From NCBI RefSeq assembly GCF_030819175.1, contig NZ_JAUTBJ010000002.1:630001-694000 (forward strand): a stretch of 64,000 bases of DNA. The letters run 5' to 3'. Within the stretch, counting starts at the first letter, position 1, and every line of letters starts with the position of its first letter. The stretch comes from Sphingomonas sp. SORGH_AS_0879. GTDB taxonomy: Bacteria; Pseudomonadota; Alphaproteobacteria; Sphingomonadales; Sphingomonadaceae. Below, piece by piece: positions 12,938-31,209 of this stretch. A program made the translations under genes and the position numbers. Under the pieces are notes generated by a model, which worked only from the letters and a program-made list of their open reading frames with translations, searched no databases and was not told the DNA's origin.

Positions 12938-12938
12938 A

Positions 12939-14717: not shown

Positions 14718-14749
14718 GGGAGGTCGGCGAAAGCCGGCCTCCCTTTTTT
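14718..14749 (+). terminator. Rho-independent terminator of the ompA-like gene
   Basis: An eleven-base stem (gggaggtcggc / gccggcctccc, one G-T type mismatch) with loop gaaa, followed by six T. It lies 31 bases after the stop codon. The remaining gap to 15004 holds no recognisable gene or structure. Confidence 0.82.
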
Positions 14750-19144: not shown

Positions 19145-19231
19145 GGAGACGTGGGTGAGTGGCTGAAACCAACGCTTTGCTAAAGCGTCGTACGGGAAAC
19201 CGTACCGAGGGTTCGAATCCCTCCGTCTCCG
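19145..19231 (+). tRNA. tRNA-Ser (anticodon GCT)
   Basis: Acceptor stem ggagacg / cgtctcc pairs end to end; D-arm 'gtgagtggctgaaa'; anticodon loop in 'cgctttgctaaagcg' gives GCT; a long variable arm typical of serine tRNA ('tcgtacgggaaaccgtacc'); T-arm 'gggttcgaatccc'. Encoded CCA follows at 19232-19234. The 3' end doubles as the attachment site of the island downstream. Confidence 0.96.
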
Positions 19232-19234
19232 CCA
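19219..19234 (+). repeat. attL core (16-bp repeat within tRNA-Ser 3' end)
   Basis: ccctccgtctccgcca covers the T-stem/acceptor 3' side plus CCA. It is identical to 31194-31209; flanking bases differ on both sides, so the shared core is exactly 16 bp. The tRNA remains intact at this end. Confidence 0.85.
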
Positions 19235-19366
19235 GCCGCTGTTTTTTCGAGCGCCCCTAAGCGCCTTCTACGCGCAGCTTTCCACAGCATTTCAGAGCGT
19301 TAGCCAACTCGATCCGCTTTCTAGCGCCTTCGAGAACCTTCGTCATATTTGTCGACTTTGAGCCAA

Positions 19367-19389
19367 ATCAGGGGTTAAAACAGGGGTCG
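19367..19389 (+). repeat. Putative integrase arm-type site, left
   Basis: A 23-base unit containing two caggggt elements (atcaggggttaaaacagg then ggtcg). It matches 31123-31145 at 21 of 23 positions in the same orientation. Paired direct repeats just inside both ends are where tyrosine integrases of tRNA islands bind their arm sites. Confidence 0.55.
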
Positions 19390-19420
19390 AACAAAGCATG
19401 AACAAGGGCGTCGAACAGCA

Positions 19421-20013
19421 ATGGGAAAGCTCAGCGCGAAGCGGATCAAAGGTCTGACCGAAAAGGGGCGGTACGGGGACGGGGACAACTTGTACCTCTG
19501 TGTTGGGAGTGGCGGGCGCAAGTCTTGGGCGTTGCTCTACACGATCTCCGGTCAGAACCGTCAGATGGGCCTTGGCCCGCTCGATGACGAATTTGGACTT
19601 ACGGAGGCGCGCGACCGCGCCGCTGAACTCCGCCGGATGATCCGCCGGGGCGTCGATCCACTGGCCGAGAAGCATGCAGAGCGGGCGAAGGCAGCGCCGA
19701 CCGTCGTTACCTTCCGCGAGGTCGCTGAGGACTGCATCGCGGCCCTCCTGCCGGGGTGGACGAACGGTAAGAGCGAAGGCCAATGGCGGCAGTCGCTGAC
19801 GGCATACGCCTATCCCGTCATGGGCAATATGGACGTAGCCGCGATCACGACCGACGAAGTGTATCGGGTGTTGGAGCCGATTTGGGCAACAAAACCGGAG
19901 ACGGCGGGCCGGGTGCGCGCTCGCATCGAGAAGGTGTTGGATCGGGCAACCGCTCGCAAGCTCCGCACCGGCGACAATCCCGCCCGTCTTAAGGGCAACC
20001 TCGACCACCTGTT
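19421..20013 (+). pseudogene. Tyrosine integrase, N-terminal part, interrupted by IS
   Basis: Begins 'MGKLSAKRIKGL' with the DUF4102-type N-terminal domain of P4-like integrases ('YGDGDNLYLCVGSGGRKSWA', 'MGLGPLDDEFGLTEARDRA', 'RRGVDPLAEK') and the start of the SAM-like core-binding domain ('GNMDVAAITTDEVYRVL', 'ARIEKVLDRATA'). It adjoins the tRNA attachment site, as usual for this class. The IS begins at 20014; in-frame translation runs on to 20056 within the IS. The catalytic domain is at 21172-21793. Confidence 0.9.
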
Positions 20014-21167
20014 GGATTCCTCTGCGAAACGGCTGGCAATGAGGATGGTTGAGTGATTCACTGTGCGGGCAGGAGGGCATGGTGATGGTCGAGCAGCGAT
20101 CGCTGGTGGAAGCGTTGATGGATCCGCGCTTGGGATCGAATGCGAAGCTGTCGGGGATCGAGCGGCTGATCGACTGGAGCCGGCTGGAGCCGCTGGTGTC
20201 GCCGCTGCGGCAGGGTCGGACGGGTCGACCGCCCTATGCGCCGCTGGCGATGGTCAAGGCGCTGTATCTGCAGGCGTTGTATGATCTGTCGGACCCCGGG
20301 CTGGAGGAGGCGCTGCTCGACCGGCTGTCGTTCCGGCGGTTCTGCGGCTTTGCGCTGGATGGCGGCACGCCGGACGAGACGACGCTGTGCCGGTTTCGCG
20401 CGGCTGCGGCGGCGGGGGACGTGCTGGAGCGCTGCTTTGCCGAGATCAACCGGCAGCTGGATGCGCAGGGGCTGGTGCTGCGGCGGGGGACGATCCTTGA
20501 TGCCTCGGTGGTCAAGGCGACCCGCAAGCCCCCGCGCGGGGACGGGATCGCGCCGGGTGATCCGCACCCCCAGGAGCCGGGTGCCGACTGGACGCGCAAG
20601 GACGGCAAGCCGGTGTTCGGCTACCGCTTCCATATCGGCATGGACGAGGGCTCGGGCCTGATCCGCAAGCTGGCCTTCACCTCGGCCAGGGTCCAGGATG
20701 TCGAACGGGCCGACGCGCTGGTCTGCGGCGACGAAGGCGCGGTCTATGCCGACCGGGCCTATGAGGGCCAGGCGCGTCGCAAGGCCCTGAAGGCGGCCGG
20801 GATCAAGGATCGCATCATGCATCGCCGGCACCGCTACATGCCAAAGCTGCCGCGCTGGCAGGCCCGGCGCAACCACCTCATCGCCAGACGGCGCGCCCCT
20901 GTCGAGGCGGTCTTCAGCGCCATGAAGCGCCTCTACGGCAAGGCGCGCACCAGATGCCTGTCGATCGAGCGGAACGCCGCAGACTTCCTCGCCTTTGCCA
21001 CCATCTACAATCTCAGACGCGCCGCCATCCTTGCCGCTGGCTGAGCCGGAGCGATCCTGCCCCTCCAAACCGGCCAGCCAAAGCTGACCAAGGCCCGTAC
21101 CGGATCCCTGCAGCGAAAGCCTCGCCCAGATCCTCTGTCACAAATGAGCCGTTTCGCAGAGGAATCC
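20014..21167. mobile_element. IS5-family insertion sequence, 1154 bp
   Basis: Perfect 21-base terminal inverted repeats: ggattcctctgcgaaacggct at 20014-20034 and its exact complement at 21147-21167. The flanks carry a 4-base direct repeat tgtt (20010-20013 and 21168-21171), the target duplication length usual for the IS5 group. One transposase gene fills the element. Deleting the IS with one tgtt copy rejoins the integrase frame exactly ('LDHLL' + 'AKQSKVKRVKSHAALPY'). Confidence 0.93.
20079..21044 (+). CDS. IS5-family DDE transposase
   Basis: Encodes 321 residues from ATG 20079, chosen because GGAGGG sits at 20072-20077; a TTG upstream would lie in the left end. N-terminal DUF772 domain ('FRRFCGFALDGGTPDETTLC'), then the DDE residues in 'GTILDASVV' (Asp), 'YADRAYEG' (Asp) and 'RRAPVEAVFSAMKRLYG' (Glu), with the 'YNLRR' end typical of IS5. 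The frame is complete, so the element may still be mobile. Confidence 0.93.
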   Translation: MVMVEQRSLVEALMDPRLGSNAKLSGIERLIDWSRLEPLVSPLRQGRTGRPPYAPLAMVKALYLQALYDLSDPGLEEALLDRLSFRRFCGFALDGGTPDETTLCRFRAAAAAGDVLERCFAEINRQLDAQGLVLRRGTILDASVVKATRKPPRGDGIAPGDPHPQEPGADWTRKDGKPVFGYRFHIGMDEGSGLIRKLAFTSARVQDVERADALVCGDEGAVYADRAYEGQARRKALKAAGIKDRIMHRRHRYMPKLPRWQARRNHLIARRRAPVEAVFSAMKRLYGKARTRCLSIERNAADFLAFATIYNLRRAAILAAG

Positions 21168-21793
21168 TGTTGGCGAAGCAATCGAAGGTGAAGCGGGTGA
21201 AGTCGCACGCCGCGCTGCCATATGCCGAAGTGTCGAGCTTCATGGCCGAGGTGCGGAAGCGGGAGGGTGTCGCCGCCCGTGCTTTTGAGTTCGCCATCCT
21301 GACCGCCGCCCGCACGAACGAGGCGCTGGGCGCGACGTGGAGCGAAATTGACCTCGACGCCGCTGTGTGGACGATCCCCGCCGACCGTATGAAGGCCCGC
21401 CGCGACCATCGAGTGCCGTTGAGCGATGCGGCGGTTGCGCTCCTGCGCTCGATGCCGCGCGATCAGGGCAGCGACTTCGTGTTCATCAGTCCGATGGCGA
21501 AGGGCAAGCCGCTCAGCAACATGGCCTTGCTCGCCACCCTCAAGCGCATGGATCGCACCGACCTGACCGCCCACGGCTTTCGGTCCACGTTCCGCGACTG
21601 GGCGGCTGAGACGACGGCATACCCCGACGCCGTGGTTGAGATGGCCCTCGCCCACGCGATCAGCAATGCAGTGGAGGCGGCATACCGACGGGGCGACTTG
21701 TTCGAGAAGCGCAAGCGGTTGATGGCCGATTGGGCTGGGTACTGCGAATCAGGCAGCCAGCGAACGGCGGAAGTGGTGCCGATCCGCGCTTGA
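21168..21793 (+). pseudogene. Tyrosine integrase, C-terminal catalytic part
   Basis: Continues the integrase after the IS: 'HAALPYAEVSSFMAEVRKRE', then the catalytic-domain boxes 'ILTAARTNEALGATWSEID' (Arg), 'RDHRVPLSDAAV' , 'TAHGFRSTFRDWAAE' (His-x-x-Arg) and 'VVEMALAHA' with 'AYRRGDLFEKRKRLMADWA' (the C-terminal Tyr is in 'AAYRRG'). All catalytic residues survive, so the loss is due only to the insertion. Whether this fragment is translated separately is unknown. Confidence 0.9.
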
Positions 21794-21917
21794 AAGCGCA
21801 GCCGTCCTCACGGGAAAAATGATAAGCCGCTGTAATTGCACAAAAGAAAAATAACTAACTGTAGGAAAGCCGACGCACACCCTTATCGTTCGGGATGAGC
21901 TTCTAGAGGCTTCCCGG

Positions 21918-21932
21918 ACCTCCAAGGGAGGT
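21918..21932 (+). promoter_or_regulatory. Hairpin enclosing the ribosome site of the AlpA-like gene
   Basis: acctcc-aag-ggaggt forms a perfect six-pair stem whose 3' arm is the Shine-Dalgarno sequence ggaggt, eight bases before ATG 21941. It could hide the ribosome site and dampen translation. The stem is short; function is inferred. The rest of 21794-21917 is AT-rich and probably holds the promoter. Confidence 0.4.
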
Positions 21933-21940
21933 TTCGACTG

Positions 21941-22159
21941 ATGACTGCCAAGTACGTTTTGTCCCCCGCCGAACTGCGCGAGCAGCTTGGCCTATCGCGC
22001 AATGCCATTGAACGGCTGATCGAGAACGGCGACTTGAAGCCGCCCATTCTTCTGTCGCCCCGCCGCAAAGCGCACCTGACGAGCGACGTGGAAGCGTTCC
22101 TCGCTTCCCGCGCCGCTCTGCGCGACGCCAGCGACAATCCCGCCCACCCCTGCGCCTGA
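21941..22159 (+). CDS. AlpA/excisionase-like helix-turn-helix regulator
   Basis: A 72-residue protein with a MerR-type winged helix start: 'LSPAELREQLGLSRNAIERL' followed by 'IENGDLKPPILLSPRRKAHL' and 'TSDVEAFLASRAAL'. AlpA-like proteins control integrase expression or act as directionality factors in P4-like islands, and this one lies just after the integrase. A strong ribosome site is present but may be paired in a hairpin. Confidence 0.75.
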   Translation: MTAKYVLSPAELREQLGLSRNAIERLIENGDLKPPILLSPRRKAHLTSDVEAFLASRAALRDASDNPAHPCA

Positions 22160-22168
22160 GCGCAGACG

Positions 22169-22402
22169 ATGGACGATGATTTTGACTTCGGCCCGCCGGG
22201 GCCGGTCGTCGTGCTCGACCGCGCCGCCGACACATGGGCCGTATTCTTCGATCCGCCCATGCCGGACGGGGAACGGCGGGTCACGTTCGCAGACAAGAAC
22301 ACCGCTTGGGGCGAAGCGATGACCCGTTGCGCCGAACATCGGTTCGGTTTTCGCGATGATGCAAACCCCGCGACAGGCAATCGGAATGCCGCTCTCAAGT
22401 AA
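22169..22402 (+). CDS. Small hypothetical island protein, 77 aa
   Basis: Acidic N-terminus 'MDDDFDFG', then 'PVVVLDRAADTWAVFFD' and 'RRVTFADKNTAWGEAMTRCA', the look of a small alpha/beta domain. It begins nine bases after the AlpA-like stop. No family recognised. Confidence 0.55.
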   Translation: MDDDFDFGPPGPVVVLDRAADTWAVFFDPPMPDGERRVTFADKNTAWGEAMTRCAEHRFGFRDDANPATGNRNAALK

Positions 22403-22472
22403 TCGGTCGAATTATTACTTTCGACTGAAGGGAGTGCACTCGAAGAATAAGCCTCGAAACGAGGAGGTATAT

Positions 22473-22928
22473 ATGCAGACCCAGTTCACCAGCCCTTACG
22501 TCCACAAGAAGATTATTCCCGCTCTCAATCGCGACTGGGATCGCAAGCAGGCGCAGGATGACAAGTCCACCAAGGCGCTGGGCTTCGCTCCTACCGCCGA
22601 TCATCCACGCTGGTCTTTCGATCAGATCGCGGCGGCGGAGTTCTATCTCAGCCAACGCGACAAGGGCCACAAGCGCGAAATGGCGGGCCGATTGGCGACC
22701 CGGCTGCATCACGCGATGCAGGAACACCCGACCGCCGACCAGTTCACCGTCGTCACGCTCGCCAACGGCTCCACCTCGATCCACCCGACCGCCGACCTCG
22801 ACCTCTCCACCGGCTTCGTGTCGGGCGGCTGCGTCGAGACGGCACTGATGATCGAGGTGCGGGGTCTGCGGGAAAAGGTGGCGCGGGCAATTGAGGAAGC
22901 CGCATCCGTCGTCGGCACCGAAGAATGA
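22473..22928 (+). CDS. Hypothetical island protein, 151 aa
   Basis: The start follows a consensus ribosome site GAGGAGG (22461-22467). The product is a helical protein with 'RWSFDQIAAAEFYLSQRDKG' and 'TRLHHAMQEHPTADQFTVVT', ending in a helix 'LREKVARAIEEAASVV'. No known domain. The strong initiation signal implies good expression ahead of the primase operon. Confidence 0.65.
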   Translation: MQTQFTSPYVHKKIIPALNRDWDRKQAQDDKSTKALGFAPTADHPRWSFDQIAAAEFYLSQRDKGHKREMAGRLATRLHHAMQEHPTADQFTVVTLANGSTSIHPTADLDLSTGFVSGGCVETALMIEVRGLREKVARAIEEAASVVGTEE

Positions 22929-23026
22929 ACGCGCTCGCGATGCTGCTCGCGACGGTCGGGCTGGCGGTGAGTCTCGCTGCCCTCGACCGCGCGCGATTGC
23001 CGGAGGGCCGCGATGCTCGTCCCTGA
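22925..23026 (+). CDS. Possible 33-aa single-span peptide
   Basis: ATG overlaps the previous stop (ATGA). It encodes a hydrophobic segment 'ALAMLLATVGLAVSLAAL' followed by a basic tail. The stop lies 11 bases inside the next gene. It is short and could be chance, but the coupled start and transmembrane pattern support it. Confidence 0.35.
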   Translation: MNALAMLLATVGLAVSLAALDRARLPEGRDARP

Positions 23027-25016
23027 AAACGAAGCGACCCCCGCCGACCGAACGGCGGGGGCCACCCCAGAGGTAACTATGAAGCCCGATTCTTCTGCCG
23101 AAGATGCACGTCAGACGAAAGCTGACGGCTCTTGGTCAGCCGACGATCCTGACCGGCCATTCTATGATCGCACGACCAAGGTGGTCGACATTTTCGACTA
23201 CCACCATGAAGGCGGTCGATACTCCTGCTCCAAGATTAAGGGGCTGCGAAGTGACGGTGAGAAGGTCTTTCTCACCGGTCGGCTTCGCGGCGGCAATGAT
23301 CTTCAAATCGAGAAGCAGGAATGGCCCGATCAGTTTTATCGTTTCGAGGGCCTGACCGATTACATGAAGGGCAAGGGTGATGAACCCGACTTGCCGTTCC
23401 GGTTGCATGATCTGACTCGCGAGAAAGCGGCGCGCCCGGATGAGCCGATCATCGTGCTCGAAGGCGAGAAGGACGCGAACACAGCGTGGGCGCAGGGGTT
23501 CATAGCCACTTCTAATCCAGACGGCGCGATGAAGTGGCGCGATCATTTCAACACGCATTTTGAGGGCCGTCACGTCGTTGTCGTCGCAGACAATGACGAA
23601 AAGGGACGGAAGCACGCCACCGCCGTTGCGCGATCTTTGGTGCCGGTCGCGGCCTCTGTGAAGATCATCGACCTTCCAGGCTTAGGGAGAAATGGCGACT
23701 TCACCGACTGGATCGAAGCAGGCAACGACCGTGACAAATTCCAAGCCCTGATCGCCGCGACGCGGGCGGAGCGTGACTTTGCGCGGGATGACGACCGCAA
23801 GCCGCTCAATATTCCCAGCAACGTGCGTCTGTCGCTCAAGCTGATGGGAACCGCCGTCCGGTACAATAACTTCGCTGACAGGTATGAAGTTGAGGGGCTG
23901 GCTGGTTTCGGTTCGCTACTAGACGACGCCGCACTCAACCGGATGCGACTGCAAGCGGAGGAACGCTACCGGCTCGCTGTAGGCAAAGATCGCTGGCACG
24001 ACATCGTGACCGATACCGCCCGCCGCCGGTCTTATCACCCCGTGCGCGACATGCTCGACGGCTTGATATGGGACGGCGTTGACCGGCTCGATGAGTGGCT
24101 GGTGACGTATGCCGGGGCCGAGGACAGCGAGTATGTGCGGGCTGTTGGCGCTATCTGCCTCATCGCGGGCGTCCGCCGGGTCCGCGTGCCGGGGTGCAAG
24201 TTCGATGAGATGCTGGTCCTTGAAGGCGAGCAGGGCGGAAACAAAAGCAGCGGCCTAGCCACGCTGGCGGGCCGCGAGGACTGGTTTGCCGACGACCTCC
24301 CGCTGGACGCCGATAGCAAGGTGTTGATGGAGCGAACGGCGGGCCGGTGGATCGTTGAGCTTGCCGAGTTGAAGGGCTTGAGACGCGGTGCTGTCGAGCA
24401 CGTCAAGTCGATGCTTAGCCGCCAAGTCGATAAGGCGCGTCTCGCTTACGGGCGCATGACGACGGAACAGCCGCGCCAGTGCGTGTTCTTCGGCACCACC
24501 AACGACGGCCAGTATCTCCGCGACATGACCGGCAATCGGCGGTTCTGGCCTGTAGCGGTCAAGCGGTTCGATCTGGCGGCGCTGCGCCGGGATCGAGACC
24601 AACTTTGGGCGGAGGCAGCGGCGAGGGAAGCCGCTGGTGCGAGCATTCGCCTGCCGGAAGAATTGTGGGCGGTGGCCGGGGCGCATCAAGCAGGCCGTGA
24701 GATCGGTGACCCATTCCACGATCTTCTGTCCGAACGTCTAGACGGCTGGGAGGGCAAGGTTCGCGCCAACGACGTGTGGGAAGCCTTGGGCTTGGGGGAG
24801 GTCGGGCGCCGGACGCAGGACGATAATGTGCGCCTCAGCGCCGCCATGCAGAAGCTCGGTTGGCGGCGTCCCAAATCGAAGGTTCGCTTCGATGGGCGTC
24901 CGCAACTCGCATGGGTGAAGGGCGGCGATTGTGATGGTGTCGGGGCTTTCGATGAGGTGCCGCGCGCAGTGGTGCTTGGTCTGGACGCGCATGGCGACGA
25001 CGGGAGGCCGATGTGA
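23013..25016 (+). CDS. TOPRIM primase / VapE-type helicase replication protein
   Basis: A 667-residue protein; ATG 23013 has GGAGGG at 23002-23007, and ATG 23079 has its own AGAGG, so two starts are possible. Residues ~145-240 form a TOPRIM domain ('PIIVLEGEKDANTAW', 'VVVVADNDEKGRKHA', 'GDFTDWIEAG'). Residues ~340-600 are a virulence-associated E type P-loop ATPase with Walker A 'GEQGGNKSS' near 406 and 'VFFGTTNDGQYLRDMTGNRR', 'WPVAVKRFDL'. Such proteins start replication of satellites and small prophages. The repeat-rich region follows directly. Confidence 0.88.
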   Translation: MLVPENEATPADRTAGATPEVTMKPDSSAEDARQTKADGSWSADDPDRPFYDRTTKVVDIFDYHHEGGRYSCSKIKGLRSDGEKVFLTGRLRGGNDLQIEKQEWPDQFYRFEGLTDYMKGKGDEPDLPFRLHDLTREKAARPDEPIIVLEGEKDANTAWAQGFIATSNPDGAMKWRDHFNTHFEGRHVVVVADNDEKGRKHATAVARSLVPVAASVKIIDLPGLGRNGDFTDWIEAGNDRDKFQALIAATRAERDFARDDDRKPLNIPSNVRLSLKLMGTAVRYNNFADRYEVEGLAGFGSLLDDAALNRMRLQAEERYRLAVGKDRWHDIVTDTARRRSYHPVRDMLDGLIWDGVDRLDEWLVTYAGAEDSEYVRAVGAICLIAGVRRVRVPGCKFDEMLVLEGEQGGNKSSGLATLAGREDWFADDLPLDADSKVLMERTAGRWIVELAELKGLRRGAVEHVKSMLSRQVDKARLAYGRMTTEQPRQCVFFGTTNDGQYLRDMTGNRRFWPVAVKRFDLAALRRDRDQLWAEAAAREAAGASIRLPEELWAVAGAHQAGREIGDPFHDLLSERLDGWEGKVRANDVWEALGLGEVGRRTQDDNVRLSAAMQKLGWRRPKSKVRFDGRPQLAWVKGGDCDGVGAFDEVPRAVVLGLDAHGDDGRPM

Positions 25017-25344
25017 CGGGCTTCCGAACCTCCCCGAACCCCGCCCGAACCTCCCAGGGGGGGGCGCCGTATCCTCAGCTTTTCTGTGGGTTTCGTTGGG
25101 GCGAACCCCCCGAACCCCCTCTTTCTCTAGAAGTAGAAACGAGAGGGGAAGCGGACGGGGAAAGACGGCCCCCGCGACCCCTCTACCGGAAAACCCCGGT
25201 TCGGGGAGGTTCGGGGGGTTCGCCCCAAAGGAACCCCGCAGAAAAGCTGGGGAAATCGCGAACCCCCTCCCTCCCGCGACAGGGGTTCGCCCCGCCCCTC
25301 CAGGGGGTTCGCCTTCCCCGCCTGAACCGAACGGACGGAATATC
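25017..25344. repeat. Iteron-rich region with long inverted repeat; candidate replication origin
   Basis: Gene-free. The hexamer cgaacc appears six times (25025, 25035, 25046, 25102, 25111, 25259) and its complement ggttcg five times (25198, 25208, 25217, 25284, 25306). A ~42-base imperfect inverted repeat pairs 25076-25117 with 25208-25249, flanking an AT-richer centre (ctctttctctagaagtag). This architecture directly after a primase-helicase gene suits an origin recognised by it; a packaging site or hairpin terminator cannot be excluded. Confidence 0.55.
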
Positions 25345-25719
25345 ATGAGTGAACAGCAGTATATCCGCGACGCCTCGACCAACTATCTCCCGGCGCTGGT
25401 CGAACCGACCCATAGCTCCCGCCGTGAGCAGGTGCGCTGGCGCGTTCGCCACCTCAACCTGTCCGCCCTCGACCGCGAGACGCGGCAGGATGCGGCGGCA
25501 GACCCCGGCATCGAGTGGGACCCGACCGAGCGCCAGTACCGCATACGGCGGCGCGGGAAGGCCGGAGCGCAGTGCGCCAGCGCCGTCCAGTCCGACCCTA
25601 GCGCCATCCCCGCCGCCAGCCCTCCTGCATCGTCCCCGGCGGGCGTCGGGAGCGCCCTGGCGGGAGGGGGCCAGAAAAGTTCGGACGCCTCCAGCCTTAC
25701 GACCGGCGCCAACCAGTAA
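25345..25719 (+). CDS. Hypothetical island protein, 124 aa
   Basis: N-terminal two thirds are helical ('REQVRWRVRHLNLSALDRET', 'WDPTERQYRIRRRGKAG'), the rest is Ala/Pro/Ser-rich and probably disordered. ATG lies 328 bases after the primase, at the edge of the repeat region, with a weak ACGGA ribosome site. No family. Confidence 0.55.
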   Translation: MSEQQYIRDASTNYLPALVEPTHSSRREQVRWRVRHLNLSALDRETRQDAAADPGIEWDPTERQYRIRRRGKAGAQCASAVQSDPSAIPAASPPASSPAGVGSALAGGGQKSSDASSLTTGANQ

Positions 25720-25753
25720 CGCATATACTAACACCCAAAGTGGAGGACACCCG

Positions 25754-26269
25754 ATGAGTATCAATGTGAAGAACCCACGGCGTCAACGTGCTGATAGCGC
25801 AGAAGCGGCAGTTAAAGACATGCTTAATGGCGAGCGTATCATCACGCCGCCTGCCGATTACTTCCTGACCAGCCCCGAACTCACCATCTTCAATGAGGTG
25901 ATTGCCGAGTTGCCGAAGGGCGAATGGACCGATCACATGATCCGCATCGCCGCTGACCTAACGCGCATGATTGCCGACGCGCGGGCCGAAGCCGATGCGA
26001 TCCGCCGTGAGGGCAGCGTTGTGGAAGGTGCCAGCGGCGGGCCGATCCGCAATCCCCGGTGCGCGGAACTTGCGTCGCTGCGGGCCTGCATCGCGACCAC
26101 CCGCCGCTCCCTCGCCATCCACAGCCGCGCCAAGGACGGCATGGACACTGGCGGCCTCGCCCGTCGTCGCGAGCTACAGCGCGGCAACGAGGCATTCCCG
26201 CTCGATGACGACGACGAAGGCCTGCTGGCGCGCCCGCCCGCTGACTTCGACTTCAATGGGGTGCATTGA
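25754..26269 (+). CDS. P27-like phage terminase small subunit
   Basis: Encodes 171 residues, preceded by GGAGGA (25742-25747). The middle follows the P27 small-terminase pattern: 'LTSPELTIFNEVIAELPKGE', 'HMIRIAADLTRMIADARAEA', then 'GGPIRNPRCAELASLRACI', where the Gly-...-NP motif is a hallmark. Small terminases choose the DNA to package. No large terminase is present in the island, as in satellites that redirect a helper phage's packaging motor. Assignment is by pattern. Confidence 0.62.
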   Translation: MSINVKNPRRQRADSAEAAVKDMLNGERIITPPADYFLTSPELTIFNEVIAELPKGEWTDHMIRIAADLTRMIADARAEADAIRREGSVVEGASGGPIRNPRCAELASLRACIATTRRSLAIHSRAKDGMDTGGLARRRELQRGNEAFPLDDDDEGLLARPPADFDFNGVH

Positions 26270-26270
26270 T

Positions 26271-26516
26271 ATGACCAGGAGCGAAACCGCCAGCATCGAC
26301 AAGATCGAACGCTGCCGCCGGGTGAACCGGCTCGCCGCCTCTAAGTACGCCGAGCAAGGCGTTGCCCCCGACGACATCGCCATAGCTGCCGCCTACAGCG
26401 CCGTGGACCTCGCTCAGCACAACGTGGGCGACCCCGCCGCCGCTATCGCCTGGGTGCGTCGCGCCCTCGACGTAATGGAAGCGGGCCTCCCCCTCACCGT
26501 GGAGACGATGCAATGA
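26271..26516 (+). CDS. Hypothetical island protein, 81 aa
   Basis: ATG follows the terminase-like stop by one base. The product is fully helical ('SIDKIERCRRVNRLAASKYA', 'AAIAWVRRALDVME') with the look of a tetratricopeptide-like hairpin. Overlaps the next gene by four bases (ATGA). Confidence 0.55.
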   Translation: MTRSETASIDKIERCRRVNRLAASKYAEQGVAPDDIAIAAAYSAVDLAQHNVGDPAAAIAWVRRALDVMEAGLPLTVETMQ

Positions 26517-26713
26517 TCGACCACCCTGCCTATGCCGCCGCAACGCCCGAAGTGCGCGCCGCCGCGCTCGCGCTGTTGGACGAAATCAGCGAACCACTTC
26601 ACCCTCACGCTCTGGAGCGCCGATTTCAGGACGAAGGGCTGACGCGCGGACAAGCCCGGAAGGCGAAGCACGCACTAGGCCGCGTCAATGTAATTGCGCT
26701 GGTCCCCCGGTGA
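26513..26713 (+). CDS. Small helical island protein, 66 aa
   Basis: Starts in the ATGA overlap with the previous gene. Pattern 'LLDEISEPLHPHALERRFQD' then 'GLTRGQARKAKHALGRVNVI' suggests a winged-helix DNA-binding fold. Ends in a GTGA overlap with the next gene, so three small genes are coupled. Confidence 0.5.
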   Translation: MIDHPAYAAATPEVRAAALALLDEISEPLHPHALERRFQDEGLTRGQARKAKHALGRVNVIALVPR

Positions 26714-27108
26714 GTGGCGGGCGACCAAGGCGACCGGCGCTAGAGGCGCGGCTGGTTCGCGAGGCGGTGGCGGACATGGATCCATCCGCGCCTCGCGAAC
26801 CGTTGGCCCGCGATCTGGCCGCCCGCGTCGTGCAGCACCTTCGTAATCACGCTGCCGCTGCCTCTGAACCGGCAATGGCTGCGATGGGCGAGTTGGGCCG
26901 TGCCGTACTTCTGTCCCCTGCGCTCGCGCTCGCCACGGACCCGACCATCGACACACTCGCCCTGTTCACCGATGCGCGCGTCAAGTCCCTCCGCGACAGG
27001 AACGGCTGGCCGCGAACCGCCGACCAAGAAACGCGAGACGTGGAAGCTGCCTTCACGCAGGTAGAAGGCAAGCTGTTCGCCCGCTATCTCAAAATCATGC
27101 GCGCCTAA
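26710..27108 (+). CDS. Hypothetical island protein, 132 aa
   Basis: GTG start overlaps the preceding stop. Mostly helical, with 'AARVVQHLRNHAAAASEPAM' and a C-terminal 'VEAAFTQVEGKLFARYLKIM'. It precedes the capsid gene by 80 bases that contain an AT-rich patch and the capsid ribosome site. No family recognised. Confidence 0.55.
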   Translation: MSGGRPRRPALEARLVREAVADMDPSAPREPLARDLAARVVQHLRNHAAAASEPAMAAMGELGRAVLLSPALALATDPTIDTLALFTDARVKSLRDRNGWPRTADQETRDVEAAFTQVEGKLFARYLKIMRA

Positions 27109-27188
27109 TTATTTCCGGTCACTGGACCTTATCCAGTACTTTCCAAACCGGCTGGCCGAAAGTCCCTCCGTTATCAGGAGGAACTATT

Positions 27189-28424
27189 ATGCGAACCAAC
27201 AACCTTCCCATCGCGATGATCCGCACCGGCGGTCGCGTCATGGCCAGCGCGCTTCCGACCCGCATCCCGGTCGCGATGCTCCGTGTCAGCGGCAGCGGCA
27301 TGGGCGTCCGCGCCGATGGCAACCGCAGCCCGGAAGCGATCTTCGCGGACATTCAGGCGACGCTTCGCGACGGCTTCACCCAGCGCGATCAGCAGATCAC
27401 CAATCTGGCCGACGCAATGTCCTCGATCCAGAACCAGATCAACGCTGGCGGCCACATCGTGTTCGGCGGCTCGCAGTCGTCGTGGGGCGATCAGGTCGTC
27501 AACTCGGAAGCCCTGAGCGGCCTTCGCAACGCGGCGGGCAAGGCTCGCGCGCAGATCGACCTCACGCCCTCGAACGCAATCACCAGCGTCCCCGGCAGCG
27601 GCGGCGCGCTGATCGCGCCGGATCGGGCGGACGCGGTGGCGATGCCCCGCCGCCGCCTCACCATCCGCGACCTGCTGGGGCGCGGCACGACCGGCTCGAA
27701 CATGATTGAGTATCCGCGTCAGGTGGTTCGCGAGATCAACGCGGCCACGGTCGCGGAAATGGCGCTCAAGCCGGAAAGCCAGTTCGGCTGGGAACTCGCG
27801 CAGGCGAAGGTCCAGACGATCGCGCATTGGGTGGGCGCGTCGCGGCAGGTGCTGGACGACGGCGGGCAGCTTCGCACCCTGATCGACGGTGAACTGCGCT
27901 ATGGGCTGGCGCTGCGCGAGGAAATGCAGCTGCTGCTCGGTGACGGTGCGGGGACGAACCTGCTGGGCCTGATCCCGCAGGCGACCGCTTACGACGCGAC
28001 CGGGGAAGCCGCTGGAGCCTCCAAGTTCGATGTCGTCCTCAACGCTATCGCCCAGGCGGAGCGGGCCGACCTCCCGGCGACCGGCATCGTCGTCAACTCA
28101 ACCGACTGGCTCCGCTTGCAGGGGCTGAAGGGCAGCGAGGGCCGCTACATCGGCTCCGGTCCGATGGGCACGGCGATGGCGACCGCGTGGGGCCTCGATG
28201 TTGCCCCCTCCGCTTCGATGCCGGCGGGCAAGTTCCTTGTCGGCAACTTCGCCAACAGCGCGACCGTGTACGACCGGATGACGCCGGTGGTCCTGCTCTC
28301 GACGGAGGACCGGGACAACTTCGTCCGCAACGCCGTCACCATTCTCGCTGAGGAGCGGATTGCGCTGGCCGTGCGCCAGCCGCGCGCCCTGATCTACGGC
28401 GATTATTCGGGGGCGCAGGGCTGA
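27189..28424 (+). CDS. HK97-type phage major capsid protein
   Basis: A 411-residue protein with a strong ribosome site (caggaggaac, 27175-27184). Residues ~45-85 form a coiled-coil, scaffold-like delta region ('RDGFTQRDQQITNLADAMSS'). The HK97 fold follows: 'RRRLTIRDLLGRGTTGSNMI' 'EYPRQ', 'QAKVQTIAHWVGASRQVLDD', 'EEMQLLLGDGAGTNLLGLI', 'GIVVNSTDWLRLQ', and terminal 'AVTILAEERIALAVRQPRAL'. It would form the shell of a particle. No separate protease or portal is encoded nearby, so assembly would need a helper's parts. Confidence 0.9.
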   Translation: MRTNNLPIAMIRTGGRVMASALPTRIPVAMLRVSGSGMGVRADGNRSPEAIFADIQATLRDGFTQRDQQITNLADAMSSIQNQINAGGHIVFGGSQSSWGDQVVNSEALSGLRNAAGKARAQIDLTPSNAITSVPGSGGALIAPDRADAVAMPRRRLTIRDLLGRGTTGSNMIEYPRQVVREINAATVAEMALKPESQFGWELAQAKVQTIAHWVGASRQVLDDGGQLRTLIDGELRYGLALREEMQLLLGDGAGTNLLGLIPQATAYDATGEAAGASKFDVVLNAIAQAERADLPATGIVVNSTDWLRLQGLKGSEGRYIGSGPMGTAMATAWGLDVAPSASMPAGKFLVGNFANSATVYDRMTPVVLLSTEDRDNFVRNAVTILAEERIALAVRQPRALIYGDYSGAQG

Positions 28425-28711
28425 TGGGCGAGAAGGTCACAACCGCCGTCGTGACCGGTGAGCCGGTGCCGGAAAGCGCATATGACGTCGCGCTTCTCGG
28501 CACCCCCTCGCTCGTCACCCTCAAGCACGACACGGAAGGCGAACGGATGAAGCTCCGCATCCTCCGGGCTTGCGGGCAGTGGGTCGAAGGCGACGAACCA
28601 GAGGTCAATGCCGAGTACGGGCGGCAACTGATCGGCAACGGCTTGGCTGAGGAGGTCAAACCGAAGGCTGGAAAGCCTGCACCCGCGCCTACGGGCAATG
28701 GGCAGGCGTGA
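28424..28711 (+). CDS. Small island protein A of a tandem paralogous pair, 95 aa
   Basis: Start overlaps the capsid stop by one base (TGATG). The C-terminal half shares with the next gene the pattern 'RxCGxW-x(3)G-x(5-7)-AxYGRQLI' and 'NGLAEEV-PK-GKPAP'. Position after the capsid gene suits a head-decoration or head-completion protein, but no family is known to me. Confidence 0.65.
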   Translation: MGEKVTTAVVTGEPVPESAYDVALLGTPSLVTLKHDTEGERMKLRILRACGQWVEGDEPEVNAEYGRQLIGNGLAEEVKPKAGKPAPAPTGNGQA

Positions 28712-28953
28712 CGGATACCATCATCTTTCTCACCCATAAGCTACCCCGGCGCGAAGGTCTCACCCCCTCCGCGCCGGGGCCGACGATCAACATTCGTATC
28801 GTTCGGGAGTGTGGGCGCTGGCGAGCCGGTCAGACCGGCGCGATCAATGCCGACTATGGCCGTCAACTCATCCGCAACGGCTTGGCCGAGGAGGTCGGGC
28901 CGAAGGTCGGGAAGCCCGCACCGACCGGACAACGGGTCCGCGCGAGCGTGTAA
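28708..28953 (+). CDS. Small island protein B, paralogue of the preceding gene, 81 aa
   Basis: GTG start overlaps the preceding stop (GTGA). 'IRIVRECGRWRAGQTGAINA' and 'DYGRQLIRNGLAEEVGPKVG' align with the C-terminal half of its neighbour, showing a tandem duplication. Its N-terminus is shorter. The next 134 bases (28954-29087) hold nothing recognised. Confidence 0.62.
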   Translation: MTDTIIFLTHKLPRREGLTPSAPGPTINIRIVRECGRWRAGQTGAINADYGRQLIRNGLAEEVGPKVGKPAPTGQRVRASV

Positions 28954-29087
28954 GGGCAGGCGTTCGCGCGGTGGGCGGCGGGGTTGAGCGAGGCTCCTCC
29001 GTCGCCCCTTCCATTCGCAGAGTCGGCGGGTTAACAATATCACAAACGCGATGTGGGAAGCCACCACGCGCATTGATGGGGCGATAG

Positions 29088-30143
29088 GTGGCCGAGAAGC
29101 CGGACGACATTCAGCTAAAATTCGACGGCGAGCCAGTGAAGCGGCTTGACGGCGCTCCTGCTGACGCGGTCATCGCCTCGCTGCAAGCCCTCCAACGCAT
29201 GGTTTACATTATTGGAATGCGCTCGGAAGGGCGAAACCTAAGTGAGCGGCTTAAGCCGACGGCGAAGGTAAAGCGCGATTACGCGATCGTTTGTCGCGCA
29301 CCGAAGTATGGCAGTCACATCCAGCCCTTCAATGTCGCTTCCCAAGCTGGCGCATTCACTCCTGCCGCCGTCGCCGCACGTGAGAAACTGCTGAAGACAC
29401 TAAAGGCGTTCGACAGCGGAGAAGAGGAAAAGGTCGAACTTGCGCTTCCGAATGCGCGCGAGCGTTGGTTTATGGCGAAAGCGGCGCTCGGATTATTGCC
29501 GCCCGAAGACAGCGGCCTTGAGGTCACTGTTCGTGCTGGATCACGAGGACCATTCAACTTTAAAGCTGATCGCGCGCGTGCCCTGCTTGCGAAGTATGAT
29601 ACAGCCGAGCCACCGGAGGTGGACGAAGAAGTTGTGGCGGGCAAGTTGCAGGCGATCGACTTCGCGCGAACCATTCTGACGGTCAAGCCGAGCCACGATC
29701 CTGCTATTCGCCTGGACTACCCGCTGCCGCTTGAAGATTGGTTGAAAGCGAATGTAAGGAAGCGCCTCCGTTTCACGGGGTGCCCGAAGATCAATCAGAA
29801 GGGCGATGTAAGCTCTTTCAAGCAGATTGATACGGTTACAGAGCTTGAGCCCAGCCTGCCTCCTATCGAGGAGTTCAAGGCGGATGACTATGTAATCAGG
29901 GCCAACCGCCCACTCTCTATACCGGTCACGGTCGAGTGGGATGAGCGTCTCTTCATATTCCAAGATCGATCGATTGGCGTGGATGCTTTTGCCACCTCTT
30001 ACGGTGATCTTCGGAAAAGTGTTCTTGATGAACTGAACGTCTTATGGCGCAATTACGCGCTTGCTGAAGATGATGAGCTTGATGATGAGGCTCGCGCAGT
30101 GAAGGCGAATTTGCTGACTCGCTTTAAGGTAGCCGCCGGGTGA
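29088..30143 (+). CDS. Unknown 351-aa protein, first gene of a candidate two-gene accessory module
   Basis: GTG start; GC content is visibly lower than in the island core. N-terminal ~110 residues are helical ('AVIASLQALQRMVYIIGMRS', 'REKLLKTLKAF'). Residues ~185-265 read like an OB-type beta domain ('KLQAIDFARTILTVKPSHD' ... 'VRKRLRFTGCPKINQKGDV'). The C-terminus ('IPVTVEWDERLFIFQDRSIG' then 'VDAFATSYGDLRKSVLDEL') faintly recalls HicB-type folds. Its stop overlaps the start of a HicA-like gene by four bases, so the two are translationally coupled. A toxin-antitoxin or anti-phage role is inferred from layout only. Confidence 0.7.
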   Translation: MAEKPDDIQLKFDGEPVKRLDGAPADAVIASLQALQRMVYIIGMRSEGRNLSERLKPTAKVKRDYAIVCRAPKYGSHIQPFNVASQAGAFTPAAVAAREKLLKTLKAFDSGEEEKVELALPNARERWFMAKAALGLLPPEDSGLEVTVRAGSRGPFNFKADRARALLAKYDTAEPPEVDEEVVAGKLQAIDFARTILTVKPSHDPAIRLDYPLPLEDWLKANVRKRLRFTGCPKINQKGDVSSFKQIDTVTELEPSLPPIEEFKADDYVIRANRPLSIPVTVEWDERLFIFQDRSIGVDAFATSYGDLRKSVLDELNVLWRNYALAEDDELDDEARAVKANLLTRFKVAAG

Positions 30144-30418
30144 CGAGGGATCGCGACGTCATTGATGCTGCGCTACAGCGCAAGGGCTTCCAAAAAGATA
30201 ATGGTGACCACAATTATTATATATATTGGAACTTGGCGGGCAAAAAGACCATGAAGAAGACAAAAATGAGTCATGGTTCGTCGCATAAAACAATTGGTGA
30301 CCCGCTGCTCGGTAAAATGGCAAAGCAGGTTGGGCTGACGAAGAAGTCTTTTCTGGAGTTGGTCGATTGCACTTTAGATCAGGCGGGGTATGAAAAAGTT
30401 GCGATCGCCAATCCATAG
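30140..30418 (+). CDS. HicA-like small basic protein, second gene of the module
   Basis: A 92-residue Lys-rich protein from GTG 30140. Pattern 'VIDAALQRKGFQKDNGDHNY' ... 'TKMSHGSSHKTIGDPLLGKM' matches the HicA/YcfA layout: N-terminal helix, beta strands, and the key 'GxH' and 'SHG' residues of the double-stranded-RNA-binding-like mRNA interferase fold. It is longer than usual HicA and ends in an extra helix 'KSFLELVDCTLDQAGYEKVA'. Toxin activity is inferred. Confidence 0.6.
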   Translation: MTRDRDVIDAALQRKGFQKDNGDHNYYIYWNLAGKKTMKKTKMSHGSSHKTIGDPLLGKMAKQVGLTKKSFLELVDCTLDQAGYEKVAIANP

Positions 30419-30479
30419 CTCGATGAACGCATAATCTTTGCATTTAGGCGGAGCATAGCCATAAGCGGTTATCGGCAGG

Positions 30480-31111
30480 GTGGGTTTCAGGAAATGGGTT
30501 AGCCTTGCCTTCGGCGGGGTGACTGCTGTTGCTTTCATCATTTTTACGAAGGCTGTTGAAGAGTTTGCAGCGGCTAGGGGCTGGGACAAGTTCTTGGTAT
30601 CCGGCTGGGGGATAGTGTCGCGCCTAGGGTTATCCGACGTGGTTGCCTTCTCGTTCTTCGGGTTGGGAGGAGCTACCCTAGCCTTATGGACAGAATTTTG
30701 GTTCAGAGGGCGCAGAGAAGCCCGCGATGCGCTAGACAAGATCGCCTTATTTTCGAGAGCAGACCTGACATTTCCAAGAGTGCTGATGGCGAATTGTCTG
30801 TCTCGCTAGGTGAATCCTCAGAAAACGTCGCCTACTACGCCTGGTATGTGAATAACGGCGGGACGATGCGGAATGAGGCTGTCCTTGTCTTCATCGAGTT
30901 TGAAAAGCAGATACCCGCACCTCAAGTTCTAGCACATTCAAAACTAGAGGGGCAGTGGAGCGAGTTCGCAACCACCGATCGCTTTACATTCGTCCAGCTG
31001 AAAGGTTGGCCAGAGGGCGAGGTCGTCGTACAGTCAGTTGACTCGAAGGCTCTTGGCTTGGACCACCGCTATGAGCTTCAGGTATGGCGCTCATACTCAC
31101 CGGCAGATTAA
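30480..31111 (+). pseudogene. Membrane protein gene, apparently frameshifted
   Basis: The first frame (30480-30809) encodes two transmembrane segments ('WVSLAFGGVTAVAFIIFTKA' and 'DVVAFSFFGLGGATLALWTE') and then turns nonsensical after 'ALDKIALF'. A second frame takes over at ~30745 ('FESRPDISKSADGELSVSLG', 'YAWYVNNGGTMRNEAVLVFI') and ends at 31111, a plausible beta-rich extramembrane domain. The switch is at a tttt tract near 30751-30754. GTG 30480 is a weak start. Last gene before the island end. Confidence 0.5.
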
Positions 31112-31122
31112 AGCTCGTCTAT

Positions 31123-31145
31123 ATCAGGGGTCGAAACAGGGGTCG
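31123..31145 (+). repeat. Putative integrase arm-type site, right
   Basis: A 23-base unit with two caggggtcg elements separated by aaa, matching 19367-19389 at 21 of 23 positions, same orientation. It is 49 bases inside the right core repeat. Confidence 0.55.
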
Positions 31146-31193
31146 CGCCCGCCGCACTCCCTAGAACCCCAACTTTTCTGTGCCCGTTAGATA

Positions 31194-31209
31194 CCCTCCG
31201 TCTCCGCCA
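31194..31209 (+). repeat. attR core (16-bp repeat of tRNA-Ser 3' end)
   Basis: ccctccgtctccgcca, identical to 19219-19234. No tRNA sequence precedes it, so it is the displaced copy marking the right end of the island. Confidence 0.85.

Follow-up and report, generated by a model that had tools for sequence, protein, structure and literature searches.

An IS-disrupted, capsid-encoding island at a tRNA-Ser gene of Sphingomonas, a probable member of a family of PICI-like satellites with exchangeable coats

Lone capsid genes have been reported from phage satellites of more than one kind. The survey in PMC10111431 describes them as common in Gram-negative PICIs, with one present in 21 of 29 reference elements. 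For SaPIbov5, the account in PMC8569155 presents Ccm as a lone capsid homolog that makes small shells; Ccm occupies the pentamers, which leads to small T=4 shells, and it was found cleaved. Small heads are reported for PmCI172 (PMC6092414), and in EcCICFT073 such a gene is described as dispensable (PMC10111431, PMC6092414). Small, uniform size is a general trait of satellites (PMC10803314). An initial annotation of the locus described here held that known satellites either borrow their capsids entirely or encode a fuller packaging set, a view that the published lone capsid genes (PMC10111431, PMC8569155) contradict.

The window, i.e. the whole stretch of 64,000 nucleotides of Sphingomonas sp. 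SORGH_AS_0879 that was analysed, contains an island at 19219-31209 (11,975 bp with an insertion sequence, 10,817 bp without it). A perfect 16-bp direct repeat bounds it, in agreement with its first description as an att-bounded tRNA-Ser island, and its G+C content is 62.8%, against 67.6% for the remaining window. Near-identical arm-type repeats at the two ends are probable integrase arm sites. Five relatives from other genomes (L008-L012), which were retrieved by a coat-protein search, also have a specific att site flanked by direct repeats, as PICIs do. L009-L012 lie at called tRNA genes; in L008 the 16-bp sequence is the same, with no called tRNA. A search for an empty integration site by way of the DUF3857 neighbour returned no locus with an adjoining tRNA-Ser. 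The features of the ends and of the integrase region are as follows.

19145..19234, + strand: tRNA-Ser (GCT), the integration target (ARAGORN)
19219..19234, + strand: attL, 16-bp core CCCTCCGTCTCCGCCA, direct repeat; the same 16 bp bound the L008 and L009 islands
19368..19389, + strand: arm-type repeat beside attL (TCAGGGGTTAAAACAGGGGTCG), with near-identical copies at both island ends; also in L008
19421..20013, + strand: tyrosine integrase, N-terminal part (interrupted); PF13356 1.3e-17, PF22022 2.7e-27
20010-20013 / 21168-21171: target site duplication TGTT of the IS5-family element
20014..21167, + strand: IS5-family insertion sequence within the integrase gene, 1154 bp, with 21-bp perfect terminal inverted repeats
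20085-21044, + strand: IS5-family transposase; NF033581 3e-73
21168..21793, + strand: tyrosine integrase, C-terminal catalytic part; PF00589 2.2e-19
31124..31145, + strand: arm-type repeat beside attR (TCAGGGGTCGAAACAGGGGTCG), near-identical to the attL-side copy
31194..31209, + strand: attR, 16-bp core, perfect direct repeat of attL

An IS5-family element with inverted ends and a TGTT duplication breaks the integrase, and the earlier statement that the retained genes are intact does not hold. Because this element splits the integrase, the window copy is probably immobile and should have lost the ability to excise by itself. In each of the five relatives the integrase is a single unbroken frame (403-433 aa); the initial annotation had suggested a search for such relatives, and all five are att-bounded and portal-less. 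L011 is carried by the sphingomonad Polymorphobacter glacialis CGMCC 1.15519.

When the plausible ORFs of the island were scanned against Pfam and PHROG, none matched a portal, large terminase, protease or tail gene, which upholds the description of a capsid-encoding island without portal, large terminase or tail. In the relatives, the presence of portal and terminase genes was judged by tblastn, since the gene caller performs poorly on low-G+C loci, and neither gene was found in any of the five (16-21 kb each). An ascertainment test without a capsid query, in which the small terminase and the 132-aa family listed below were searched in 397 genomes, gave 13 matches outside the own genome. Eight of them, namely L011, L012 and six that are new from this search (L220-L223, L225 and L227), lie in islands that have a PF05065 capsid gene and in which tblastn found neither a portal nor a large terminase. 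Three (L228-L230) lie in ordinary prophages, which have both a portal and a large terminase, one (L226) has a small terminase with no capsid gene seen, and one (L224) is a remnant with stops. Twelve members of the backbone measure 9.9-11.3 kb, and att repeats enclose 9,349-11,309 bp (SD 507) at 21 portal-less elements, of which nine are more distant. The window island likewise shows the small size without a full structural set that is characteristic of PICIs. One further element (L035), a distant relative, has a related capsid gene and sits inside a prophage head cluster, adjoining the phage's own capsid gene. Distantly related portal-less elements occur in Rhizobiales and other Alphaproteobacteria; some of them have a tape measure, and some branches a protease.

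The early part of the island follows the PICI order of integrase, alpA-type regulator, primase/replication gene and origin, with the integrase IS-split and the origin predicted.

21941..22159, + strand: AlpA/excisionase-like HTH regulator; phrog_66 (excisionase) 2.1e-5, HTH_17 2.4e-5
22169..22402, + strand: conserved 77-aa protein; tblastn matches in L008, L009 and L011
22473..22928, + strand: conserved 151-aa protein; tblastn matches in L008, L010 and L011, also L220, L225 and L227
23079..25016, + strand: VapE-like primase-helicase; PF05272 7.8e-70, PHROG helicase/primase
25020..25330, no strand: iteron-like repeat region, GGTTCGGGG/CCCCGAACC repeats in both orientations
25345..25719, + strand: 124-aa ORF; no match in PHROG, Pfam or PADLOC

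The AlpA-like regulator proposed at first is supported by the PHROG excisionase match; its Pfam HTH_17 match, at 24.9 bits, lies below the cut-off of 27. What had been called a TOPRIM/VapE primase-helicase has the VapE domain and a primase-type N-terminus, with PHROG primase profiles spanning residues 86-283, but no separate Toprim match in Pfam. The iteron-like repeats are present as described, and the region is a probable replication origin, a role predicted from the repeats.

The remaining genes of the island are the late and cargo genes.

25754..26269, + strand: small terminase subunit, 171 aa; phrog_5601 6.9e-21, tblastn matches in L008, L009 and L010
26271..26516, + strand: conserved 81-aa protein; matches in L008, L010-L012, L221, L222, L223, L225 and L227
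26513..26713, + strand: conserved 66-aa protein; matches in L008, L010 and L220
26710..27108, + strand: 132-aa island protein, all-helical model; 45 homologs, AF2 pLDDT 83
27189..28424, + strand: major capsid protein, HK97 gp5 type, with delta-domain region; PF05065 1.3e-45
28424..28711, + strand: conserved 95-aa phage-type protein 3' of the capsid gene; phrog_2616 1.8e-9, matches in L008-L012
28708..28953, + strand: 81-aa protein with the same PHROG as its 95-aa neighbour; phrog_2616 1.8e-4
29088..30143, + strand: 351-aa cargo protein; no match in Pfam, PHROG, NCBIfam or PADLOC, none by tblastn in L008-L012
30140..30418, + strand: 92-aa cargo protein, HicA-like by eye only; no match in Pfam, PHROG, NCBIfam or PADLOC
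30480..30809, + strand: 109-aa cargo ORF; no match in PHROG, Pfam or PADLOC

Of the label P27-like small terminase, the small terminase part stands on phrog_5601, while phrog_83 matches weakly (0.0024) and Pfam not at all; tblastn gave no match to this protein in L011 or L012. The 132-aa protein, whose gene precedes the capsid gene, has no significant Pfam or PHROG family match, a fold search with its AF2 model gave no PDB match at E<=0.001, and its family has no relative in IMG/VR viral contigs. Metagenomic contigs of about 10.1-11.4 kb (P0010, P0036, P0039, P0122, P0123, P0139, P0143, P0154 and P0165) encode either this protein or the coat. A peptide of the island capsid proteins also occurs near the N-terminus of 18 of its 45 homologs, and the protein is a candidate head-assembly factor. 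A profile comparison of the 81-aa family at 26271..26516 with small proteins of the Rhizobiales elements was not significant, and PADLOC gave nothing for the cargo genes.

The HK97-type major capsid protein of the initial annotation is confirmed by PF05065 and by solved HK97 gp5, residues 14-383 of which (3qpr) align with the capsid family profile at 1.4e-95. Residues K194, N381 and E388 of the island coat align with HK97 K169, N356 and E363, which we take, in role and numbering, to be the cross-link residues, and they are invariant in 19/19 sequences of alignment A1. AF2 modelling of the capsid protein gave no usable structure (pLDDT 34.5). In the six elements found without a capsid query, the coat slot holds a second HK97-family coat that is 19-27% identical to the window type and does not have the HK97 cross-link residues as a feature. 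L010 and L227 have small terminases that are 73% identical, yet their coats are of the two different types, with 25% identity between the window-type coat and that of L227. The sequences show that the coat gene has been exchanged between very different HK97-type coats on one backbone. Purifying selection is seen in the dN/dS values, which are 0.19-0.33 for the capsid (15 pairs) and 0.13-0.21 for the small terminase (three close pairs). A quick tree suggested that the portal-less capsid genes share one origin, but a careful tree did not uphold this.

The reading that we prefer, at a probability of roughly 0.72, places the island, as a copy disabled by an IS, in a sphingomonad family of PICI-like satellites, which would build a small shell, or bias assembly towards one, on the portal and motor of a helper and whose coats are exchangeable. 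The island has its own coat and packaging adaptor but no portal, motor or tail, and its shell is therefore probably combined with helper parts. From the gene content we infer that such satellites depend on a helper, assemble shells, and are packaged and transferred. An intact member would insert itself at a tRNA 3' end by means of the tyrosine integrase and the AlpA-type regulator, and the primase-helicase would replicate the island from the repeat region behind its gene. Once a helper phage infects or is induced, its large terminase would be guided onto island DNA by the small terminase of the island, and the island capsid protein, alone or mixed with the helper coat, would assemble on the helper portal into a small shell sized for ~10-11 kb. 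The helper protease would mature this shell and a helper tail would be added, much as SaPIbov5 uses Ccm. Swapping of the coat gene on the same backbone may match the satellite to different helpers.

The coat could instead be a passenger or a weapon, the island travelling as concatemers in full-size helper capsids and the coat gene being dispensable or only disturbing the helper. For EcCICFT073, the capsid and decoration genes are reported to be unneeded for transfer and full-size capsids to be filled (PMC10111431, PMC6092414), and L226 pairs a related small terminase with no visible capsid gene. However, in all eight islands found without a capsid query the coat slot is still filled by a capsid gene, and this of two very different types, the capsid dN/dS is low, and full-size packaging would not demand sizes such as those of the 12 backbone members. 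We regard a passenger or weapon coat as unlikely.

Decay of a full phage that lost its portal, motor and tail by deletion at the tRNA-Ser gene, which the initial annotation had named as the main alternative, draws on the phage origin of the HK97-type coat and small terminase, on the distant small-terminase relatives in the three ordinary prophages and on the IS damage of the window copy. Against this, the reduced set recurs elsewhere with unbroken integrases and att repeats, and dN/dS is well below 1. Relatives that carry portal, large terminase and tail genes at the same site, which would have placed the island in a deletion series, number 0/5 among the close relatives and 0/6 among the further elements found without a capsid query. 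With no portal or large terminase in either set, a simple decayed prophage was rejected in favour of a satellite-like island, and decay is now a very improbable account, largely refuted.

No helper phage for the window island was identified, and its own genome has no PF03354 large terminase. Mu-type head genes lie ~42-46 kb upstream of the capsid gene on the same chromosome and are a weak helper candidate. It has also to be considered that a host gene transfer agent (GTA), not a phage, supplies the portal, motor, protease and tail. A GTA-like cluster ~67 kb upstream of the island capsid gene contains the only PF04860 portal of the genome, PF05065 finds no capsid gene there beyond those of this cluster and the island, and the second coat type is 42-46% identical to the GTA-like coat over ~290 residues. 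However, that coat type is equally close (46%) to a Burkholderia phage coat, the window coat has no BLAST match to the GTA-like coat at 1e-3, 8 of the 20 genomes searched are without a PF04860 portal, and L035 is embedded in a phage; a GTA as helper seems highly doubtful. An encapsulin-like compartment of coat protein carrying no DNA, to which the missing portal gene and a weak match to the family 3 encapsulin NF041188 might point, was rejected and is barely credible, as that match (71.8 bits) is far under the cut-off of 180, a small terminase lies nearby, and the island coat keeps the HK97 delta-domain region, which to our knowledge encapsulins lack.

Beyond the preferred reading of the sphingomonad family, we tentatively entertain, at somewhat less than even odds for the claim as a whole, an unnamed alphaproteobacterial class of tRNA-integrated satellites of near-constant length (9.3-11.3 kb) with an HK97-family coat and no portal or motor. 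Its core late gene would be a full coat, to which some branches add genes for a protease and a tape measure; the coat would be an exchangeable module, 19-27% identical on the same backbone; and several coats would stand behind the same N-terminal peptide, shared by some 132-aa proteins. If true, these elements would substitute for no more of the helper particle than the parts that set its size (the shell and, in some branches, the tail ruler), and the peptide and the 132-aa protein would couple any coat to the island assembly programme. The sphingomonad family and the distant elements would form a natural series that bears on how a satellite determines head and tail size when the portal is foreign and on how it adapts to new helpers. 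Single-genome packaging in a fixed small shell directly predicts the near-constant island length, a prediction that lends itself to testing.

P4-like satellites have sid, psu and delta and a P4 alpha-type gene set, and these labels are absent among the island matches in a general rather than dedicated Pfam/PHROG scan. Virion-encapsidated marine elements (VEIME, tycheposon) are recognised by their occurrence in particle DNA or by a family-specific integrase; for the island, IMG/VR contains no relative of the 132-aa protein. The cf-PICIs resemble the island in encoding a capsid protein and a small terminase, but they also encode a protease, portal, connectors and large terminase (PMC10690885) and average 14 kb (PMC10803314); membership was rejected, with none of these four recognised in the island and no portal or large terminase in the five relatives. 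MulchRoom and MiniFlayer, satellites of Streptomyces phages, share a capsid gene but have genes for both terminase subunits, a portal, a scaffold and an adaptor (PMC10690885). L035, directly after a phage capsid gene within a head cluster, is like the helper-embedded PICIs of the 11capE type as PMC10111431 describes them, whereas no phage surrounds the window island or any of its five close relatives.

SaPIbov5 is similarly a satellite with one HK97-type capsid homolog and, in the account of PMC8569155, no identified protease. It is staphylococcal and cos-packaged, whereas the window island has the AlpA/VapE layout of Gram-negative elements and its own small terminase, and the shell function of its coat is putative. 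With respect to this type, the island coat has the delta-domain region and cross-link residues and the size range is narrow, with co-assembly a predicted step. The closest likeness in layout is to Gram-negative PICIs of ~10-20 kb, in which integrase, alpA, primase and origin are described as followed by late genes, frequently with a lone capsid gene among them (PMC6092414, PMC10111431). Those described (EcCICFT073, PmCI172) are from Gammaproteobacteria, and EcCICFT073, as reported, has no small terminase and a dispensable capsid gene. The portions of these descriptions consulted mention neither coat exchange on one backbone nor the 132-aa protein, both of which are found in the window island family. 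The proposal of a new satellite therefore stands in part: the family looks undescribed and its coat gene appears swappable, but the novelty was overstated, coat-carrying islands such as SaPIbov5 (Ccm), EcCICFT073 and PmCI172 being already known elsewhere. On its gene content, the island is best read as an alphaproteobacterial variant of the PICI-like satellite, of which lone-coat forms are already known from staphylococci and Gammaproteobacteria.

The island lies between two perfect copies of a 16-bp sequence, at 19219–19234 and 31194–31209, which confirms the att repeats first proposed for it. Its features are as follows.

19145–19234, tRNA-Ser(GCT) gene, the 3' end of which is the 16-bp att sequence
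between the repeats, + strand, tyrosine integrase in two pieces
after the integrase, + strand, AlpA/excisionase-like regulator
between the repeats, + strand, VapE primase-helicase, then a repeat-rich stretch
25754–26269, + strand, small terminase (phrog_5601, 6.9e-21)
between small terminase and capsid gene, + strand, three small conserved genes
27189–28424, + strand, HK97-type capsid gene (PF05065, 1.3e-45)
after the capsid gene, + strand, two small genes (phrog_2616)
distal to this pair, + strand, cargo genes with no family match

A paired motif, AGGGGTnnAAACAGGGGTCG, is present near both ends, and perhaps marks integrase arm sites. Among the plausible island ORFs, neither Pfam nor PHROG revealed a gene for portal, large terminase, protease or tail, in agreement with the initial annotation as to portal, large terminase and tail. 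However, the retained genes, described there as intact, are not all so. The integrase is split by an IS5-family element of 1154 bp (20014–21167; NF033581, 3e-73) with 21-bp perfect inverted repeats at its ends and a 4-bp TGTT duplication. Due to this insertion the copy in the window is probably stranded, and functional inference therefore rests on relatives of the island. From repeat to repeat the island measures 11,975 bp, or 10,817 bp without the insertion element and duplication. Its cargo includes a pair of genes (29088–30418) with products of 351 aa and 92 aa, the latter HicA-like by eye; neither has a match in Pfam, PHROG or PADLOC.

Scanning genomes with a 19-sequence capsid alignment yielded 206 confirmed stretches, the best 80 of which were retained, and a scan of viral contigs added at least 80 more. 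Among the best 80 of 206, the island layout is repeated at five loci: L008 in S. melonis (capsid 93% identical to that of the window), L009 and L010 in Sphingomonas MAGs, L011 in Polymorphobacter glacialis and L012 in Alteripontixanthobacter muriae. The sought-after intact integrase is present in all five as one frame of 403–433 aa. Gene order is conserved, and tblastn does not find every gene in each. The small terminase is found by tblastn in L008, L009 and L010, and the VapE primase occurs in L008, L009, L011 and L012, while L010 carries another replication gene. The 132-aa protein encoded just before the capsid gene (26710–27108 in the window) is found in L008, L009 and L010 by tblastn and, by profile, at matching places in the L011 and L012 genomes. 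All five have att repeats of 14 to 46 bp, located at tRNA-Ser in L009, L010 and L011 and at tRNA-Lys in L012; that of L008 is the same 16 bp as in the window, although ARAGORN called no tRNA in L008. Together with the window's island (minus the insertion element) these loci span 10,358–11,309 bp. The capsid clade is uncommon: among 397 genomes of the bacterial family only 3, counting the own, reach E ≤ 1e-100, and in a set of 100 genomes only the own genome and G020 do so.

Because L008–L012 had been found by their capsid genes, the 397 genomes were also searched without a capsid query. The small terminase identified seven genomes at E ≤ 1e-15 and the 132-aa family eight at E ≤ 1e-6, own genome included in each. 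The 13 hits outside the own genome consist of the L011 and L012 genomes, six new elements (L220–L223, L225 and L227), L226 (integrase and small terminase, no capsid gene seen), L224 (a remnant whose 132-aa gene is broken by stops), and L228–L230, three prophages with portal and large terminase whose small terminase is 35–44% identical. The initial annotation named close relatives with portal, large terminase and tail genes at the same place as the mark of a simple deletion series from a prophage; by tblastn, neither portal nor large terminase was detected in any of L008–L012 or of the six new elements. The latter have a tRNA at one end in every case (Ser three times, Arg, Lys and Cys), att repeats of 14–46 bp and lengths of 9,861–10,773 bp. 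The capsid slot of each is occupied by a gene of 401–414 aa (PF05065, 1.8e-70 to 1e-78), the products of which are 29–70% identical to one another and 19–27% identical to the window capsid protein. Identities are much higher for the backbone genes: 67% for the integrase and 59% for the primase of L220, 62% for the integrase and 70% for the small terminase of L225, and 73% between the small terminases of L227 and L010. The capsid slot of one backbone thus accommodates either of two highly divergent coat types. The second type is 42–46% identical to the coat of a GTA-like cluster in the own genome and 46% to that of Burkholderia phage Bcep176; the L225 coat has 542 phage matches, all below 60% identity.

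When proteins taken from the loci themselves were used as queries, 20 of 160 loci (the best 80 of 206 genomic stretches and the 80 retained from viral contigs) lacked both portal and large terminase. With L108 and L129 dropped (contigs <5 kb), there remain L008–L012 and 13 others (L013–L017, L019, L020, L023, L027, L043, L046, L072 and L110), although the absence is weakly tested in L043, where the capsid match is preceded by 0.3 kb of sequence, and in L110, whose contig is only 8 kb. A Pfam search of 20 genomes (own, those of L008–L012, 12 of the 13 others, L035 and L045) detected the portal family PF04860 in 12 and the large terminase family PF03354 in eight. The over-cut-off portals in the genomes of L013, L014, L015, L016, L046 and L072 are on contigs that differ in length from that of the element. 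In S. melonis a portal shares a contig with the island, at a distance of about 46 kb from the locus, whereas L035 and L045 each have a portal inside the locus itself, on the contig of the element. L045 is a real exception, its capsid gene belonging to a full head cluster. In L072 a 215-aa gene has a match (9.8e-6) to a PHROG annotated as large terminase, and related genes occur in several wider elements, so that the lack of a motor is slightly less secure for these than for the sphingomonad family.

A tape-measure-type gene follows the capsid gene in L014 (11279–13216), L017 (11058–12683), L027 (12689–14704), L046 (12709–13464), L110 (5571–7265) and L223 (12076–14316), and some portal-less elements of this kind also have a head protease before it. 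It would be unusual for a satellite to determine the size of the head as well as the length of the tail. A gene of 74–95 aa lies shortly before the protease or capsid gene in the window (26271–26516), L014 (8826–9107), L016 (8531–8809) and L015 (8712–8936), with no significant homology across groups of portal-less elements.

The portal and motor of L035 (S. ginsenosidimutans) are those of a prophage. Its large terminase, portal and protease genes and the phage capsid gene (4095–5300) are followed by primase, protease, a second capsid gene (9650–10870), regulator and integrase (to 15348), and then by connector and tail genes. The second capsid gene falls in the portal-less group, and the region at about 5300–15500 is a probable satellite embedded in its helper at one locus. 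Its candidate ends are an 11-bp repeat at 5271 and 15355, a length that can be chance.

Att repeats are present in all six sphingomonad elements (window and L008–L012), in nine of 12 wider elements examined (L013, L014, L016, L017, L019, L020, L023, L027 and L046; none found for L015, L035 and L072) and in six of eight examined from the capsid-free searches. These 21 elements measure 9,349–11,309 bp (mean 10,437, SD 507; window minus the insertion element) and use Ser, Lys, Glu, Gln, Phe, Pro, Val, Arg and Cys tRNA genes, with L019 at a repeat without tRNA assignment. Such a narrow range is as would be expected from single-genome packaging in a fixed small shell, but is not proof, since the available text of PMC10803314 gives means of 9.5 and 10 kb for PICI and P4. 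The longest contigs for nine listed capsid or 132-aa homologs (P0010, P0036, P0039, P0122, P0123, P0139, P0143, P0154 and P0165) are 10.1–11.4 kb, approximately island length, and might be complete free elements.

Capsid dN/dS is 0.19–0.33 in all 15 pairs among the window and L008–L012, those with L012 being near saturation (dS 1.4–1.8). The small terminase shows 0.13–0.21 in three close pairs and 0.40–0.46 in three pairs with L010, at dS 1.8–1.9; the 95-aa gene after the capsid gene (28424–28711) 0.08–0.19 (six pairs); and the 132-aa gene 0.30 (one pair). The capsid family profile covers HK97 gp5 residues 14–383, delta domain included (3qpr, 1.4e-95), and the window protein alone aligns only from residue 100 on. 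HK97 K169, N356 and E363, the cross-link residues, correspond along the alignment to K194, N381 and E388 of the window capsid, invariant in all 19 aligned sequences. All 989 matches in 50,697 phage records are below 60% identity.

A quick tree of 106 capsid proteins sets 19 portal-less rows, the window's among them, together with L035 and L045 apart from 85 prophage rows (support 90), and the no-portal label requires 4 changes versus 12.5 in shuffles. In a careful tree of a chosen subset of 61 rows, with L035 counted as portal-less, it requires 2 versus 17. The six sphingomonad proteins form one clade (100/99) next to L014 (93/87). A single origin is not established, as the careful tree has weakly supported deep nodes and several long terminal branches. 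The second coat type, left out of both trees, is an argument for at least two entries of capsid genes into such elements.

Close to the N-terminus, the peptide PRA[LIMV]xGxVxA is carried by 17 of 46 sphingomonad-group capsid homologs (P0001–P0046, some fragments), by none of 74 other listed capsid homologs, and by 18 of the 45 listed homologs (P0121–P0165) of the 132-aa protein. In L010 (8705, 10034) and L011 (8398, 9980) the two proteins of a single element both show it or something close to it, and it begins three of six second-type coats (L220, L225 and L227). It is absent from all three prophage or GTA-like coats compared, and in strict form from the window's capsid and 132-aa proteins. 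Its retention across coats otherwise 19–27% identical suggests a coupling role in assembly. An AF2 model of the 132-aa protein is predicted to be all-helical (pLDDT 83), and matched no solved fold at E ≤ 0.001.

Profile searches for portal, capsid and large terminase found no helper in the own genome. The only PF04860 portal there is located in a head cluster with a GTA-like gene order (L170 8099–13520, about 588–594 kb of chromosome C2, upstream of the window); the two PF05065 capsid genes are that cluster's and the island's, and PF03354 is absent. Mu-type head genes (phrog_1005, phrog_976 and phrog_26) lie about 42–46 kb upstream of the capsid gene. They occur with a CI-like repressor between the GTA-like cluster and the window (L171 10941–19281, about 611–619 kb).

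In an intact relative, excision, replication and packaging would take place while a helper phage is active. The island small terminase would recruit the helper's large terminase, and the island coat, alone or mixed with helper coat, would form a small shell on the helper's portal. The delta domain would then be removed by the helper's protease and the helper's tail added. According to the available text of PMC8569155, SaPIbov5 uses Ccm in nearly this way, and a protease has not been identified there; the island is likewise without a recognised one.

The initial annotation held that known satellites either borrow capsids or encode a fuller packaging set. This does not hold for reference PICIs, 21 of 29 of which carry a capsid gene, one not required for transfer, in the portions of PMC10111431 available. 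A capsid gene is also carried by EcCICFT073 and PmCI172, and PmCI172 makes small heads (PMC6092414, in part). Among the papers listed by a literature search, none was seen to describe elements of this kind from sphingomonads or Rhizobiales, although absence from print is not established. The cf-PICIs, as described in the accessible sections of PMC10690885, have portal, protease and large terminase, whereas none of these is recognised in the island. The arrangement of L035 resembles that of the HE-PICIs, described as helper-embedded (PMC10111431, same portions). We class the island as a variant of an already known kind of element, new as a variant.
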